Position numbers and translations under genes: made by a program. From a virus, in IMG/VR virus record IMGVR_UViG_3300031787_000358, positions 1-38,032 of that record: 38,032 nt of DNA; one strand, written 5' to 3'. Below are positions 7,474 through 30,265 of the stretch, in pieces. Below the pieces are notes generated by a model, which saw only the letters and a program-made list of their open reading frames with translations, had not been told where the DNA came from and did no database searches. The number at the start of each line of letters is the position of its first letter. The first letter of the stretch is position 1.

Positions 7474-8255
7474 TGGCGAGCGTCTTCGCTGGCGGCAGCG
7501 ATAGGCCGCTGATCAAGTTGGCACTCGGAAAAGGCAAGAAGGCGAAAGCCTTGTTTGCCGTTGAGCCGCTGGCAGACGTGGCGGCCGAGCTCAAGAAGCT
7601 GCCGCGAGACATCAGCACGAAGTACCAGCTGCGTGCACTCAAGAAAGCGGCGAAGCCAGGCCAGGAAGCGTTGCGGAAGAACGTCGCCGCCCTCGGTGAA
7701 GTCACTGGCAACCTGCTGGCGAGCGTCAGCCAGGTCAGCAGGAAGTACACAAACAACAAGGCAAAGCTGCCGGTGGGCGTTGTCGTGGTTGGCTTTCGTC
7801 GCCCGGTGAACAGCAAGAGCCAGAAGGGTGCCACGCCAGCCTTCATCGGCGGCACAGTCCTGAAGGGTCCAAATCGGGCGTACCACTCGCATCTCGTCGA
7901 GTACGGCACGCAGCCCAGGTCTGCTGGCAAGTCCAAGCGTGTCAGCCGTCGCCGTGTGATCCTCGGCGGCAGGATTCGCACGCTCACGGAACGGGCGAAG
8001 GAGAAGCCGTCCGGCCGTGGCGTCCTGTCATCGTTCAAGACTCGCGGGCCGTTCTTCCGGCCTGGCGTCCGCCGCTACCCCGTTGACTTCATCGCAACAG
8101 GCACCGTCCGTGGGAGCCCGGCTCGCCGGCCGCTGACGCGGGCCTTCCAGTCCACGAAGAGCCAGATGCAGAGCATCTTGGACGTGGAGATGCGTAAGGC
8201 CCTGACGGCAGCGATCCGTGCAACCCAGAAGAAATACGGAGACTTCGGCCTATGA
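7473..8255 (+). CDS. HK97 gp10-like tail completion protein
   Basis: A 260-residue, strongly basic product. It has an N-terminal helix (LADVAAELKKLPRDISTKYQLRALKKAAKPG) and a later HLVEYGTQPR motif, as in the HK97 gp10 family of tail-completion proteins. It is longer than the usual ~150 residues because of basic loops in the middle. The TAATG junction couples it to the head-closure gene, and the 3' end overlaps the tail terminator gene by 4 bp. Confidence 0.82.
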   Translation: MASVFAGGSDRPLIKLALGKGKKAKALFAVEPLADVAAELKKLPRDISTKYQLRALKKAAKPGQEALRKNVAALGEVTGNLLASVSQVSRKYTNNKAKLPVGVVVVGFRRPVNSKSQKGATPAFIGGTVLKGPNRAYHSHLVEYGTQPRSAGKSKRVSRRRVILGGRIRTLTERAKEKPSGRGVLSSFKTRGPFFRPGVRRYPVDFIATGTVRGSPARRPLTRAFQSTKSQMQSILDVEMRKALTAAIRATQKKYGDFGL

Positions 8256-8662
8256 AATCGCCAGAAGCCGTCCTGCGTACCGCCCTGGTTGGCAGCACGG
8301 CCGTCACCACGCTCGTCGGCACGCGGATCTACCCGGTGCTCGCCCCGGCGTCAGCCACGCTGCCGTTTGTCACATGGCGGCGTACTGGCATCCAGCGAGA
8401 GCAGACGCTGCGAAACCCGATGGGCATGCCGCGCGTCACCCTGGAGTATCAGGTGTACGGCGTCACGTATGACCAGACCCGCGAGGTGGCGGACGCCATG
8501 CGTGTCGTTCTGGATGGCTACGGGGGCCAGTCGGAAAATACGGTGGTGGAGCAGGTGTCGTTGGAGAACGAATCCGACGACTTCGTTTCACTCGGCGGAG
8601 CAGAGATGCCGCCGGCGTATCAGATCACGCAGACCTACGACATCCGCTGGCAGGAGAGCTGA
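8252..8662 (+). CDS. Tail terminator (DUF3168-like)
   Basis: A 136-residue protein of the DUF3168/tail-terminator type: the N-terminal helix SPEAVLRTALVGSTAVTTLVGTRIYP, the PFVTWRR strand, and the C-terminal YQITQTYDIRW strand. In siphophages this ring stops tail-tube polymerisation and joins the tail to the head. It starts with ATGA coupling and is followed 3 bp later by the tail tube gene. Confidence 0.82.
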   Translation: MKSPEAVLRTALVGSTAVTTLVGTRIYPVLAPASATLPFVTWRRTGIQREQTLRNPMGMPRVTLEYQVYGVTYDQTREVADAMRVVLDGYGGQSENTVVEQVSLENESDDFVSLGGAEMPPAYQITQTYDIRWQES

Positions 8663-8665
8663 CGA

Positions 8666-9043
8666 ATGGCCACGACCCCGCATGCTGGTTCCGGCACGAC
8701 GTTTTCTTTCGCCGGTGTGAATTACACCGTCACGAGCATTACCTACACGATTGGTGCCACGGGCGGCGGGGCCGACAACATTGACATCTCGCACCTTGGC
8801 CAGACCACCGGCGAGAGCGTGAGGACGCTGAGCCGGCCGCTCGTCGGCACGCAGGGCGGCGACACGGGCAAGAGCGTCAGCATCGAGTACATCGGCACCA
8901 GCGTCATCGCCCAGAACACGACCGGCACGCTGGCGATCACCGGCGGCATCAGCGTCTCGGCGACGGCGACCTGCAACTCGTCTTCTGTCACGCTGACGGT
9001 GAACGACGCCATCCGTGGTTCGGCCGAGTTCCAGCTGGCTTGA
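8666..9043 (+). CDS. Tail tube-like protein 1
   Basis: A 125-residue beta-rich, Ser/Thr/Gly-rich protein with few charges, placed where the major tail protein is expected. The pattern GTTFSFAGVNYTVTSITYTIG followed by a DNIDISHLGQ loop matches small tail-tube proteins. AGGAGAG lies upstream of the ATG. A second, similar gene follows at 9059, so it is uncertain which one forms the tube. Confidence 0.68.
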   Translation: MATTPHAGSGTTFSFAGVNYTVTSITYTIGATGGGADNIDISHLGQTTGESVRTLSRPLVGTQGGDTGKSVSIEYIGTSVIAQNTTGTLAITGGISVSATATCNSSSVTLTVNDAIRGSAEFQLA

Positions 9044-17183: not shown

Positions 17184-18092
17184 TTAAGCCGCTGGCCTAT
17201 CGCCTCCCTGCGGCGGCTCGTTCAGGTCTAGCGGCGGGAGGAAGTCCAGCCCCCGGCTCGTCTCTGTGATCCTCGGATCAAGGTAGTGCCCGCGAGTCAT
17301 CGCCGGATCGGCATGGCCAAGGTGGGCGGTGGCGTCCCCTCCGGCAGCCGCGACGTATGAGGCGGACGCCTTGCGGATCGCGTGGAACGCCCTGGATGGC
17401 ACGCCAGCCCGTTTGCACAGCAGACGCATAGACGCATAGTGCGACAGCGGATGGCCCGTCCTGGGCCACACCAGAGCGTCTGGCGAGCGTCTGAACTTCT
17501 CCAGTTCAGCGGCGAGCTCGGCGGTGATCGGGGCCACGAGATCCCGTTCCCGGCCCTTGCGGGTTTCCGCGAGGAACAGCAGCCGACCGTGCGTCGTGTC
17601 CACCTCGCGCCACCGCAGGGCCAGGAGTTCTCCGATGCGGCACCCAGTCTGCCACGCTGTCTGCAGCAGGGTGCTCCACCACCAGGCGGACGGCAGCCCA
17701 GACATGAGCGTGCGGCGTTCCCTAGCCGTCTTCACGAGTTTGCTCATCTCCTCGACCGTGTACGCCGTTGGTGCCCGCTTCACCTTCTTCTGTCGCGGCA
17801 GGCCCGGCCATTCGCCTGGGTGGAGCTTCTTCCGGCAAGCCCAGTTCCAGATCGCCAGCAACTGGCTGCGATCCTTGGCAACCGTATGCGGGCTGACCAC
17901 GCGGCCTCGGCACGGGTTGGTCGCCCGCCACCGCAGGAACTTGGACACCGTCACGTCTTCGAGGTCCGTGACCAGCGGCTCGCGCCCCAGGAACTCCTTG
18001 AACTTGTCGATCGTGTGACCATAGAGCGACACCGACCGATCCGACAGATTCATCAGCAGTGCGTACCTCTCCAGCAACTCGTGCAACGTCAT
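17184..18092 (-). CDS. int: Tyrosine recombinase integrase
   Basis: A 302-residue integrase for site-specific lysogeny. It has an N-terminal SAM-like core-binding domain (residues ~1-95) and a catalytic domain with R152 (TGCRIGE), K179 (TRKGRE), H237 and R240 (FHAIRK), H260 (LGHADPAM) and nucleophile Y270 (HYLDP). AGGGAGGTG precedes the ATG on the - strand. It is the only clear - strand gene and is convergent with the late genes. The length and motifs fit a phage integrase; I see no sign of the extra helix of integron IntI. Confidence 0.95.
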   Translation of the reverse strand: MTLHELLERYALLMNLSDRSVSLYGHTIDKFKEFLGREPLVTDLEDVTVSKFLRWRATNPCRGRVVSPHTVAKDRSQLLAIWNWACRKKLHPGEWPGLPRQKKVKRAPTAYTVEEMSKLVKTARERRTLMSGLPSAWWWSTLLQTAWQTGCRIGELLALRWREVDTTHGRLLFLAETRKGRERDLVAPITAELAAELEKFRRSPDALVWPRTGHPLSHYASMRLLCKRAGVPSRAFHAIRKASASYVAAAGGDATAHLGHADPAMTRGHYLDPRITETSRGLDFLPPLDLNEPPQGGDRPAA

Positions 18093-26581: not shown

Positions 26582-26829
26582 CGCTCGAGCAATTCGCCCT
26601 GATTTCACTGGGCCACATAAGTCTCGCCTGCACGTTCGTGTTGGGCGTTTTGGTTGGTTGTTCTCTCTCAAAGAAAAGGATTTCACATGGCTACGGCAAC
26701 GAAGGAACGTCGCAAGACTGGTGGCATCACATTGAGCGCCGCCGATTTGAAGAGTGCTCTCGCCGCTGTCAGCCCGGCGGTGCCAACAAGGGCACCAAAG
26801 CCGGTCCTGACGAACGTGCGTCTCGGTGA
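26578..26829 (+). CDS. Possible single-TM protein overlapping dnaN
   Basis: An 83-codon frame, ATGA-coupled to the previous gene, with an N-terminal hydrophobic segment (FALISLGHISLACTFVLGVLVGCSL) and a basic start of the soluble part. Its last 143 bp overlap dnaN in another frame, so the tail may be only dnaN-constrained sequence. The TM part before dnaN reads as a real membrane peptide, but the gene is uncertain. Confidence 0.4.
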   Translation: MTLEQFALISLGHISLACTFVLGVLVGCSLSKKRISHGYGNEGTSQDWWHHIERRRFEECSRRCQPGGANKGTKAGPDERASR

Positions 26830-27799
26830 CGGGCTCGTCACCGGCACGGACCTCGAGGTGCGGATCGACGCCGCCATCGACTACCACGGCGATGCGATGC
26901 TGCTGCCGCACTCGCGGCTCATGGCGATCCTGAACGCCGCCGGTGGCGACGAGGTGACGCTGGAGCAGAAGGGCACGTCGTGCGTCGTGCGGTGTGGGCA
27001 CGGCACGTGGACGCTGCCCGTCGAGGACGCGGCGGAATACCCGATCTGGGAACCGAAGGACGCCAAGCCCGTGACGCGGCTCCCGGCGGACCAGTTCGCT
27101 CGTGCGGTGCGTGGTGTGGTGTTCGCGGCCGACCAGGAGTCGAGCCGCTATGCCCTCGGGGCGGTGCTGGTGGACGTAAAGGACGGCGTGGTCAACTTCG
27201 TGGCCACGGACGGCCGCCGGCTGTGCTCGTGCGAGATGGAGCACGACCTGGCGGTGGATGACTCCACGACGCTGGTGCCGAGCCGGGTGATGCAGATCAT
27301 GGCCCGCGTCGCGGTGGCGGCCGGCGAGGACTCGGTGCAGCTGGAGGCCACGGCGAACGAGCTCCTGGCCACCATCGGTGGCACGACCGTCACGGCCAGG
27401 CTGACCGAGGGCCGCTTCCCCCGGTGGCGCGACGTGATCCCGGCGGACGGTGGCGAGCCGACCACGGTGCTGGCCACGGAACTGCTGTCGGCGACCAGGG
27501 CGGCAGCCATCGTGACGAGCGAGCAGTCGAAGGGCGTGCAGTACACGTTTACGAAAGAGGGCATCCACCTGCACGGGCAGTCTGCCGAGGCCGGCGAGTC
27601 AAGCGTGACGTGCGAGATCGTGGAGGCCGGCAAGGCGTGCAGCGTGAAGCTCGATCCGGTGTTCGTCCGCGAGTGGCTCTCGGGCCTGCCGGCTGACGGC
27701 GAGCCCACGGTGAGCGTCCAGGCCACTGATTCGCAGTCGGCCGTCGTGCTTCGCACGGACACGTTCACCGGCGTCATCATGCCCCTGGCCACGGAGTGA
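26687..27799 (+). CDS. dnaN: DNA polymerase III sliding clamp (beta)
   Basis: A 370-residue sliding clamp, full length for the family. Recognisable segments are FARAVRGVVFAADQESSRYALGAVLVDV, NFVATDGRRLCSCEM, a TEGRFPRWRDVIP loop, and the C-terminal VVLRTDTFTGVIMPLATE. AAAAGGA precedes ATG 26687. No phage DNA polymerase is present, so it probably joins the host polymerase, perhaps redirecting it to phage DNA. An in-frame upstream start (26654) is less likely. Confidence 0.92.
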   Translation: MATATKERRKTGGITLSAADLKSALAAVSPAVPTRAPKPVLTNVRLGDGLVTGTDLEVRIDAAIDYHGDAMLLPHSRLMAILNAAGGDEVTLEQKGTSCVVRCGHGTWTLPVEDAAEYPIWEPKDAKPVTRLPADQFARAVRGVVFAADQESSRYALGAVLVDVKDGVVNFVATDGRRLCSCEMEHDLAVDDSTTLVPSRVMQIMARVAVAAGEDSVQLEATANELLATIGGTTVTARLTEGRFPRWRDVIPADGGEPTTVLATELLSATRAAAIVTSEQSKGVQYTFTKEGIHLHGQSAEAGESSVTCEIVEAGKACSVKLDPVFVREWLSGLPADGEPTVSVQATDSQSAVVLRTDTFTGVIMPLATE

Positions 27800-27801
27800 C
27801 C

Positions 27802-28263
27802 ATGGCAGCCCGTATCGACTACGACAAACTGCTGGTGCTGCGGTCTGAGGGGCTCACGGCATCTCAGATCGCAGCCCAGCTGGGCTGCTCCGAGGACAGC
27901 GTGCACCGAGCCACGCGGAAGTTCGGCCTGGAGCGACGCAGCAGCGGCAAGCGGCCGAAGCTGTCCGCAGCCGAGATCCATCGGCTGTGGGTGGAGCGAG
28001 TTCCGACGCAGGAGATCGCCGACAGGTGCGGCGTGTCCATCGGCACGATGTACTCGTACGCCCAGCGGATGAAGTTGCCGAAGCGGCCGAAGGTGGAGAA
28101 GGAACGCAGCACGGTGGACCCGTCGCCAGACGAGATCGAGCGGCTGAAGGCAATGCTGAAGGAACGGCACATCCAAGAGCGGATGCGTGAGGACGTGACG
28201 AACACGCACAGCAAGGTGAGCAAGTGGCGGCGAGGGACATTTCAGCCGAGAGGTGTGGCATAA
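27802..28263 (+). CDS. Double-HTH DNA-binding protein
   Basis: A 153-residue basic protein with two helix-turn-helix segments: LRSEGLTASQIAAQLGCSEDSVHRATRKFGL (about residues 12-43) and VERVPTQEIADRCGVSIGTMYSYAQRMKL (about 62-92), then a charged helical tail. ATG 27802 has GGAG upstream; a GTG at 27796 overlaps the clamp stop. It probably regulates transcription or marks origin/packaging sites. Its stop codon (TAA) lies inside the R'' box of attC1. Confidence 0.75.
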   Translation: MAARIDYDKLLVLRSEGLTASQIAAQLGCSEDSVHRATRKFGLERRSSGKRPKLSAAEIHRLWVERVPTQEIADRCGVSIGTMYSYAQRMKLPKRPKVEKERSTVDPSPDEIERLKAMLKERHIQERMREDVTNTHSKVSKWRRGTFQPRGVA

Positions 28264-28313
28264 CGCACAGGATAAGCGGCGGCTTCGCCGTCCGCTTCAT
28301 CCGCTGGTTATGG
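28258..28313 (+). repeat. attC1-like integron recombination site
   Basis: R'' is GCATAAC (28258-28264), then L'' CAGGAT, an outer stem AAGCGG/CCGCTT (28274-28279, 28292-28297), an inner stem CGGC/GCCG with TTC loop and a single bulged T (28291), L' ATCCGCTG (28299-28306) with a GC bulge, and R' GTTATGG (28307-28313). Recombination would occur within G^TT at 28307/28308. The layout is that of an attC site. Confidence 0.8.
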
Positions 28314-28335
28314 CTTGAGCCACACTGGAGAAAGC

Positions 28336-28602
28336 ATGAGTTACGACTACCAAAAAGAACGAGCAGGGTTGTTCACCGAGCACGGCGTGGAAACTCTGAC
28401 CGTGATTCGCGACAACGCCAAGCTGTTGTTGAAGGCGGCTGGAGCGTTCACGGCGGGCCACGCTTTTGAAAAGGCGACCGGCAGTTCTTGGACGATGCTC
28501 GCGGCGCTGGACTATCTGGTCGAAAAAGGCGAAATCGTTCGCGTCACGCGCGATGGCGATACATGGGGGCAGCATCAGGTTTTCACGGCACCACGCCAAT
28601 AG
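28336..28602 (+). CDS. Cassette 1 protein, winged-helix-like
   Basis: An 88-residue product with GGAG upstream of ATG 28336, the only gene of cassette 1. The sequence LTVIRDNAKLLLKAAGAFTAGHAFEKATGSSWTMLAALDYLVEKGEIVRV reads as a winged-helix domain ending in a WGQHQVF strand. Its stop abuts the R'' box of attC2, as is usual for cassette genes. The function is unknown; possibly a DNA-binding regulator. Confidence 0.75.
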   Translation: MSYDYQKERAGLFTEHGVETLTVIRDNAKLLLKAAGAFTAGHAFEKATGSSWTMLAALDYLVEKGEIVRVTRDGDTWGQHQVFTAPRQ

Positions 28603-28660
28603 CCATAACGCGGAAGCTGAGCGGCGGCCCCTGGCCGTCCGCTCCAGCGCTTGGTTCTCA
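28603..28660 (+). repeat. attC2-like integron recombination site
   Basis: R'' CCATAAC (28603-28609), L'' GGAAGCT, outer stem GAGCGG/CCGCTC (28619-28624, 28639-28644) with bulged T28638, inner stem CGGCC/GGCCG with CCT loop, L' AGCGCTT with GC bulge, R' GTTCTCA (28654-28660). R'' pairs with the start of cassette 1, not with this R', as expected for an integrated cassette. Confidence 0.85.
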
Positions 28661-28692
28661 GGTATGATTCTTCAAACCAAAAGGAGGGATTT

Positions 28693-29064
28693 ATGACGAC
28701 CAAAGCGAAGGATGAGGGCGATTTGTTTCTTGCTGATTGGAATGATGCCTCGCAGGTTAACACCGTCGAGCGGTGGACCGAACTTTGGGACAAGTGGTTC
28801 ATTTGCAGGTTTTCGGAACTGCGAAAGCAGGTCGAGGTCGATGGTGGATTCGGAGACAACGAAGACGAAGCTCCATGCGTGTACGCAACCCATGACGAGA
28901 TGGTGAACTGCGAGTTGGGCGGCGGTGGCAACGTCACTCCACGGGAATCTTTGGAGAACGTCATTGCGTCCTACTTCGAGCTCAAGGACGGCGACGAAGC
29001 CGAGGCCGCAATCCGAGCGGCAGTCGAACGTGGGATCGCCAAGGGGCGGGAGCGGTTTGCCTGA
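28693..29064 (+). CDS. Cassette 2 acidic protein
   Basis: A 123-residue protein with strong ribosome site AAGGAGG. It is acidic and Trp-rich in the N-terminal half (FLADWNDASQVNTVERWTELWDKWFICRF), then GGFGDNEDEAP and a helical C-terminus (DEAEAAIRAAVERGIAKGRERF). The stop codon overlaps the R'' box of attC3. No family is recognised, which is common for cassette genes. Confidence 0.8.
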   Translation: MTTKAKDEGDLFLADWNDASQVNTVERWTELWDKWFICRFSELRKQVEVDGGFGDNEDEAPCVYATHDEMVNCELGGGGNVTPRESLENVIASYFELKDGDEAEAAIRAAVERGIAKGRERFA

Positions 29065-29151
29065 GAACGCCAGCGATCAGCGGCCCGCGACCTATGGCCA
29101 TGAACAAACCAACCGACGCTCTCGCGGGTCCGCTGCATCGCGTGGTTCTCA
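29062..29151 (+). repeat. attC3-like integron recombination site
   Basis: R'' TGAGAAC (29062-29068), L'' CAGCGAT, outer stem CAGCGG/CCGCTG (29078-29083, 29130-29135) with bulged T29129, extended stem CCCGCGA/TCGCGGG (29084-29090, 29122-29128), a 31-nt variable loop, L' ATCGCGTG, R' GTTCTCA (29145-29151). It is longer than sites 1 and 2 because of the variable terminal structure. R'' and R' are fully complementary here. Confidence 0.85.
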
Positions 29152-29210
29152 CGGCATCGCTACTGGCCGGAACTGCATGGACTTCAGAGCCTCGCGGGCA
29201 GGAGTACGCT

Positions 29211-29366
29211 TTGCGGCATGGAGACGCCGTGCTGTTTTGGATTGCCGACGAGCGACAACCGGCCTATGGAGAGGTCTGTTATTTATGGGGCTACGTTCCT
29301 GCGATTCATAGCGGCGGCCGGACGTTCCGTTTTTGCGACGTTGAGTGGTGCTACGGCGGACTGTAG
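29211..29366 (+). CDS. Cassette 3 protein
   Basis: A frame ending at 29366 encodes a compact, aromatic- and Cys-containing protein (GDAVLFWIADERQPAYGEVCYLWGYVP, then RTFRFCDVEWCYGG). Within the cassette the best start is TTG 29211 with GCAGGAG six bases upstream (51 residues). A GTG at 29142 or ATG 29094 would start inside attC3 and would change on recombination. The protein looks real, but the start is uncertain. Confidence 0.45.
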   Translation: MRHGDAVLFWIADERQPAYGEVCYLWGYVPAIHSGGRTFRFCDVEWCYGGL

Positions 29367-29581
29367 GCACAAGTGAGAACCAGTGTTTCTACGGACCCGT
29401 ATAAACGCCCGGCCCGCTGGATAACACGCCGCATGGATGCGCCGTTCGGCCGCGAGGCACGCGGCGGTGCCAGATAACGTGCCGGATAATGTTGCGAACG
29501 CTGCCGTGACTCCTTGACGTTTGACACGCATGCCATCTTCCGTTTGACCCGGCTGACACCGGGCTCTCACGGAGGATTGCC
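29367..29581 (+). other. Gap with attC remnant and degenerate sequence
   Basis: 215 bp without a clear gene. It starts with the R'' box TGAGAAC (29374-29380) and, four bases on, GTTTCTA (29385-29391), an attC apparently reduced to R'' and R' with the hairpin lost. A TATAAA at 29399 and three TTGAC motifs (29514, 29521, 29544) occur without matching partners. CCCGG/CCGGG (29548-29552, 29559-29563) forms a small hairpin before the next ribosome site. Confidence 0.55.
29374..29391 (+). repeat. attC4 remnant at array end
   Basis: GTGAGAAC at 29373-29380 is the exact reverse complement of the start of cassette 3 (GTTCTCAC at 29145-29152), so the R'' box of its attC survives. The core hairpin and L boxes are missing. 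GTTTCTA at 29385-29391 could be the following R'. Confidence 0.6.
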
Positions 29582-29863
29582 ATGCGTTTCTTTCTCGCCT
29601 GCCTTGTGGGATTGGCCTGCTTCACGGTTGAAGCCGCCGGCCCGACTGTCGTGGTGACGGCCCAGGATCACGCCACGATCATCGCCCGTCGCGGCGTGCT
29701 CGTGCACTCGTCGTGCGGCCAGTACGAAGGGATCGGGTGCGGCTCGACGCCCGAGCAGGCCCGGCGGAACTGCTGCTACTTCGGCAAGCGGGTGATCGTC
29801 GAGGAAGGCGTCGCCTACTCGCCGGCCCGTCGCCAGTGGTTCGCCGTGATTCGATACCGGTGA
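29582..29863 (+). CDS. Small exported Cys-containing protein
   Basis: A 93-residue product with a clear signal peptide (MRFFLACLVGLACFTVEA, likely cleaved near AEA/AG). The mature part has CGQYEGIGCG and ARRNCCYFGKR, so disulfides are likely in an oxidising compartment. GGAGG precedes the ATG. It may act in the cell envelope, for example in superinfection exclusion. It lies directly after the cassette array. The function is unknown. Confidence 0.7.
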   Translation: MRFFLACLVGLACFTVEAAGPTVVVTAQDHATIIARRGVLVHSSCGQYEGIGCGSTPEQARRNCCYFGKRVIVEEGVAYSPARRQWFAVIRYR

Positions 29864-29866
29864 GCC

Positions 29867-30265
29867 GTGGCCATCACGTTTTCTGTACCTGGCAAGCCAA
29901 TTCCGCAGCCACGCGTAAAAGTGACTCGGAGAGGCCATGCGTACACGCCAGATAACGGAATCGTGGCGTACCGACAGGCGATAGCCCTGGCGGCGAAAGC
30001 CGCCGGGGCGTTGCCTACAGACGAAGCCCCGCTCACGCTCATCATCGACCTTGTTTTCGTCAGGCCAAAGTCGCACTTCAAGGCCAGCGGCGAACTAAAT
30101 CCACGCACTGCGTTGCGTCTCCCGCCAGGGGATTGCTCGAACTACCAGAAGGGAGTTGAGGACGCATTGAACGGCGTGGCATGGGTTGATGACGTGCAGA
30201 TCGGAAAAGTCATCACGGAGAAAACGTACGGCACGGAGGCACGGACTACCGTGCGAATCGGATGA
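29867..30265 (+). CDS. rusA: RusA-like Holliday junction resolvase
   Basis: A 132-residue RusA-family endonuclease that resolves branched DNA before packaging. The signature region has D89, N92, K95, D99, ALNG (100-103), W106 and D108-D109 (GDCSNYQKGVEDALNGVAW, then VDDVQI). The canonical DxDN is D-C-S-N here, one spacing variant to check. The start is GTG 29867. The stop overlaps the glycosyltransferase start (ATGA). Confidence 0.88.
   Translation: MAITFSVPGKPIPQPRVKVTRRGHAYTPDNGIVAYRQAIALAAKAAGALPTDEAPLTLIIDLVFVRPKSHFKASGELNPRTALRLPPGDCSNYQKGVEDALNGVAWVDDVQIGKVITEKTYGTEARTTVRIG

Follow-up and report, generated by a model that had tools for sequence, protein, structure and literature searches.

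Can a phage maintain an array of gene cassettes of its own when its genome appears to hold no enzyme dedicated to moving them? The question is raised by a 38,032-base IMG/VR virus record, referred to in its entirety as the window, in which terminase, portal, capsid and tail tape measure genes occur together with a helicase gene, as expected of a phage genome. Three short genes in this record alternate with hairpins (Table 1). An earlier note on this DNA had described them as integron cassettes and phages as vehicles for their transfer, both of which are upheld here, but its remark that phage cassette arrays are rarely if ever described does not stand. According to the main text of Qi et al. 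2023 (PMC9892861), phages carry both complete integrons and CALINs, that is, attC clusters without intI, and IntI1 recombined five of the six phage sites assayed there with attI1; the Shewanella prophage M16-3 has an attI on an intI-less cluster as well as a complete integron. The clusters in that account resemble the present one in having attC sites without intI and methyltransferase cargo, but some of the arrays are unidirectional like those of bacteria. Since such clusters were published in 2023, cassette carriage by a phage is not in itself new.

Table 1. Features of the array and its surroundings (window coordinates)
Feature	Position	Strand	Details
Ordinary phage tyrosine recombinase	17184..18092	-	PHROG integrase E 1.6e-37; PF00589 over cut-off
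DNA polymerase III beta clamp gene	26654..27799	+	Pfam DNA_pol3_beta domains; upstream of array
Helix-turn-helix gene, fixed left flank	27796..28263	+	Sigma70_r4_2/HTH_23; relatives in 16 phage loci
attC 1, 5' part of cassette 1	28262..28309	+ (= attC bottom strand)	R1 28255-28316; bulges T-N6-C
Cassette 1, predicted mobile unit	28264..28608	+	Spans the C of its left box through the AA of the following one
Cassette 1 gene from its ATG	28336..28602	+	Sub-threshold Pfam only: AbiEi_4 E 0.011, CbtA_toxin E 0.029
attC 2, 5' part of cassette 2	28607..28656	+	R1 28600-28663
Cassette 2, predicted mobile unit	28609..29067	+	95.9% identical to phage L024 cassette
Cassette 2 gene from its ATG	28693..29064	+	TGA overlaps next left box TGAGAAC
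attC 3, 45-nt loop with gene 3 start codon	29066..29147	+	R1 29059-29154
Cassette 3, predicted mobile unit, adjoins attI	29068..29379	+	Homologous unit in L004, similarity from left box (29062)
Cassette 3 gene	29094..29366	+	ATG within attC loop, reads through right box
Putative attI-type site, fixed right array end	29378..29430	+	AAC|CAGTGTTTCTACGGA plus TATAAA, GATAAC repeats
Conserved downstream gene, fixed right flank	29582..29863	+	29517-29910 at 87-90% in relatives

The hairpins were compared with attC sites of bacterial integrons using a covariance model, R1, trained on host (planctomycete) sites alone, with zero phage sequences. Planctomycetota genomes supplied the 36 training sites (L140 and L145 come from records titled otherwise). 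An integron integrase over the cut-off is present in the genomes that contributed 35 of these sites but not in the genome behind the last one (L147). The hairpin common to the sites is 94.9% paired, and its double-sided changes number 126, compared with 30 after shuffling. This search, a check that the earlier note had proposed, recovered attC 3 at 73.3 bits (E 3.4e-20), attC 2 at 47.1 bits (E 3.2e-12) and attC 1 at 46.7 bits (E 4.4e-12), all at the places originally suggested and far above the next-best match in the 38 kb window (12.1 bits, E 0.16). When the window was scanned independently for pairs of single-base bulges separated by 6 bp, only the same three sites emerged; of 100 dinucleotide shuffles scanned in this way, 86 gave no site and not one gave three. 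Each site combines AAC...GTT boxes with a hairpin and two extrahelical bases on one arm, attC 3 having a folding z of -3.04, and on these features the three can be taken as real attC sites. With three attC and no intI, the locus falls within the definition of a CALIN (at least two attC, intI absent). Rfam returned nothing at gathering thresholds, and no match to the array locus was found in a phage DNA collection.

The orientation of these sites is unusual. The bulges on the + strand of the window form the pattern T-N6-C, and published attC bottom strands are of the form T-N6-G or T-N6-C (PMC3053210); hence the + strand corresponds to the attC bottom strand, though the genes also lie on +. Genes in host arrays are on the opposite strand to such a layout, as in the planctomycete integron of G006 (identities read by eye). 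With polarity so inverted, a hairpin should move with the gene after it, and a test of this linkage was substituted for a comparison of longest-ORF directions (80:26 in phages, 8:20 in hosts), which is weak because antisense frames are open in GC-rich DNA. Among 179 phage sites, hairpin identity was 0.863 in the 46 pairs sharing only the following gene, with 54% above 0.9, but 0.622, with none above 0.9, in the 30 pairs sharing only the preceding gene, against a background of 0.643. Some identical genes nevertheless sit behind different hairpins, so leaders must also change by another route. The phage unit, as read from these comparisons, is thus a 5' attC followed by its gene, the reverse of an ordinary cassette, and the arrangement of a gene followed by its attC that the earlier note implied is not what is found. 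Class 1 integron cassettes share the R boxes, two-bulge hairpin and circular unit, but have attC at the 3' end (PMC4670013). Planctomycetota chromosomal integrons (G006, G009, G001) share the attC family, the type of attI and the placing of the array at attI, but they encode intI, and their genes precede the hairpin and lie on the top strand of attC. In three planctomycete integrons (L185, L176, L186), intI and the cassettes are codirectional and the array adjoins the 3' end of intI, opposite to the class 1 arrangement.

The limits of the units are marked by their boxes. Each left box in the window is complementary to its own right box at 5/5 positions in all three cassettes (for cassette 1, right box GTTATGGC and left box GCCATAAC), as the earlier note had claimed for the cassette ends, and two complementary R-box ends are what define an integron cassette. 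The same holds more widely, with an own-end complementary run of at least 4 in 71% of 103 phage cassettes, compared with 16% within sites and 15% in random pairs. Similarity between the window and the related phage L004 starts at the left box, and the TAA stop codon of the helix-turn-helix gene overlaps the first left box, CATAAC. Polarity, unit boundaries and box complementarity are all evident at the level of sequence.

Many phage sites also appear to supply the translation start of the gene that they precede. An ATG open for at least 40 codons past the right box is present in 114 of 155 long-loop phage sites; 109 of the ATGs are in one frame, and a Shine-Dalgarno sequence occurs at 106 sites. 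Such starts were seen at four of 41 host sites, one of them with a Shine-Dalgarno sequence. Within the window, only cassette 3 has a predicted loop start, cassettes 1 and 2 having short loops and ordinary starts. Neither cassettes with a 5' attC nor start codons within the loop of an attC turned up when the open literature was searched, and neither these nor planctomycete phages were found in the main text of Qi et al. 2023 (PMC9892861). No earlier report came to light there of a 5' attC layout common to many related phages, whose closely matching cassettes are ordered differently on diverged backbones, or of loop starts.

The right end of the array had been described as a remnant attC, at 29378, but this sequence does not fold (z 0.07) and instead resembles the attI beside planctomycete integrases. 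The box belonging to the first cassette marks where array and intI meet in host integrons; G009 reads ggcctaac|CAGTAATTCTACAGAACTCGATAATG there, and the window has gtgagaac|CAGTGTTTCTACGGACCCGTATAAAC at the corresponding position on the same strand. A weight matrix derived from five phage ends, the window's included, was scanned over 41 host intI loci and reached 34.1 bits at the attI place of G009 and 23.2 bits at that of G001 (shuffled null: median 0.5, 95% 7.9, maximum 16.2). The best match falls at the corresponding place in about seven more host loci, at moderate or weak scores; the match is strong in only two loci and absent in many. Among the phages, this right end is kept across relatives, and its 18-base core occurs in ten stretches beside arrays with different last cassettes. 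In sequence, strand and place, the site at one fixed end of the array is that of an integron platform, and is best described as a putative attI. Another right-end type, AACAAGTATTCG, is present in 12 phage stretches and is a candidate attI variant with a slight resemblance to the host sites.

Searching with a single right-arm pattern identified at least 119 IMG/VR stretches and 14 in bacterial genomes, the latter mostly Planctomycetota; the largest arrays have about 15 sites (L039, L093). Had related phages carried these genes at constant spacing and without cassette boundaries, this would have spoken against the cassette interpretation; instead, relatives retain the flanks while the cassettes differ. 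Two cassettes 95-99% identical between L004 and L064 are in opposite order in backbones only 67-72% identical, and the backbone of L024, which shares cassette 2 with the window, is about 67% identical. Substitutions at codon positions 1, 2 and 3 number 2, 2 and 9 between the cassette 2 genes of the window and L024, and 12, 4 and 17 between the cassette 3 genes of the window and L004. The cassette orders and backbone identities in relatives indicate that the cassettes are reshuffled. At the array site of L008, L009 and L010 there is a 265-bp remnant with no recognisable attI, apparently an eroded array.

The absence of an integron integrase from the window, as the earlier note had reported, was confirmed: the best match to TIGR02249, the recombinase at 17184-18092, scores 24.8 bits against a cut-off of 265, and the locus is in this respect not a complete integron. 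None of 100 related phage records contains one over the cut-off, an absence that is provisional because many of these records are fragments; the cut-off is exceeded in 74 of 249 genomes of the planctomycete class. The locus is probably a phage integron that has no integron integrase of its own and relies on host IntI acting in trans, in a phage whose host is itself probably from the Planctomycetota. The enzyme most likely responsible is host IntI, with recombination during infection or lysogeny and expression through read-through. The host integrase would cut the + strand, as the attC bottom strand, at AA|C of the left box, such that hairpin, gene and left box are excised as a circle able to re-insert at the phage attI, another attC or a host array. 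Inversion of the genes relative to attC would bring them into the same direction as the phage operon, with transcription entering from the clamp and helix-turn-helix side and running towards attI. The unit would bring along its translation signals, which in most relatives are a Shine-Dalgarno sequence and ATG inside the attC loop, so that an inserted gene could be translated without a cassette promoter of its own. The window phage may be temperate, given the ordinary phage integrase that it encodes.

That integrase might instead have taken over recombination at attC and attI, and 37 of 50 related records, like the window, do encode tyrosine recombinases. It scores, however, as an ordinary phage integrase and is without a stretch carried by all three compared host IntIs before the C-terminal motifs; this insert, helix I2, is the part that handles folded attC. 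Furthermore, the phage enzymes vary widely in sequence (26-54% identity) whereas the sites are uniform, and 13 of the 50 array-bearing records, some of them fragments, show no such enzyme; this alternative is regarded as quite improbable. In L226, a phage tyrosine recombinase gene (8009-8920) adjoins the array, unlike in the window, where the two are 10 kb apart. A somewhat better, but still unlikely, proposition is that an array of integron origin today owes all its reshuffling to homologous or phage recombination between near-identical hairpin arms, IntI being inactive there. The arms, 20-30 nt long, are nearly identical between sites, the same gene occurs with swapped hairpins, no IntI was found in the phage records and L008-L010 look eroded; yet exchange through the arms would scramble the complementarity of each cassette's own boxes, which survives well above the controls, an attI-type end is retained in divergent phages, and a bacterial integron has captured phage-type cassettes.

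The view that ordinary cassettes with a 3' attC were acquired by chance from a bacterium accounts for the box pattern and accords with the known occurrence of such clusters in phages. It can be given very little credence, as the hairpin is linked to the following gene, the bulge polarity and the strand matched by the model are those of inverted sites, genes in host arrays are on the opposite strand and attI is at the right end. That the hairpins are terminators or replication signals rather than attC would fit GC-rich hairpins between genes, but they match host attC sites that neighbour intI (best E 3e-20) and have the exact bulge spacing at all three sites; as far as sequence allows, this idea is refuted.

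If host IntI does act in trans, phages would be users of the integron system with a landing site of their own, rather than accidental carriers, and their cassettes would be rebuilt, each bringing its own translation start. This would be a natural system with inverted cassette orientation, would make cassette spread between bacterial lineages testable, and would mean that surveys assigning attC to the preceding gene misplace cassette borders in such phages. There is perhaps an even chance that the whole phage group has its own cassette economy, consisting of a phage attI, mirror-image cassettes and host integrases as movers. Because their orientations are opposite, neither host cassettes placed in phages nor phage cassettes placed in host arrays would then be expressed, and one enzyme would serve two separate gene pools, each still able to carry the other's genes. 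Transfer might even cross phyla, as with planctomycete-type phage cassettes in a cyanobacterium. Three inverted cassettes of the phage type lie inside an integron of Cyanobium sp. FGCU52 that has its own intI (L183, reverse complement 1623-2663), between canonical MazEF-like cassettes and intI; the surrounding genes look cyanobacterial by eye. As only one of 201 genomes of its family carries a phage-type site, Cyanobium was rejected as the phage host and its cassettes are read as a capture. The phage lineage probably infects Planctomycetota, but this assignment is indirect, the best portal match in planctomycete genomes reaching 38% identity. The TerL family is present in 25 of 50 related records. 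Terminase matches with one or two in-frame stops were observed in related phage records G047, G056, G012, G036, G044 and G060, and likewise in G045, G031, G027, G032, G038 and G016.

The three cassette proteins of the window matched no family, and no PHROGs match was found for cassette proteins. That of cassette 1 has no relative in GTDB genomes, and its gene shows 54% identity over 75% to a Polaromonas plasmid; cassette 2 has no match in plasmids and its protein none in Pfam. Across the phages, the 179 cassette proteins form 92 clusters, including DUF551, methyltransferase and HNH proteins. Many have an attC-encoded N-terminus near MSAASRGS and a C-terminus of the form LTDxERxA..LLER, the motif being present in 28 of the 179.
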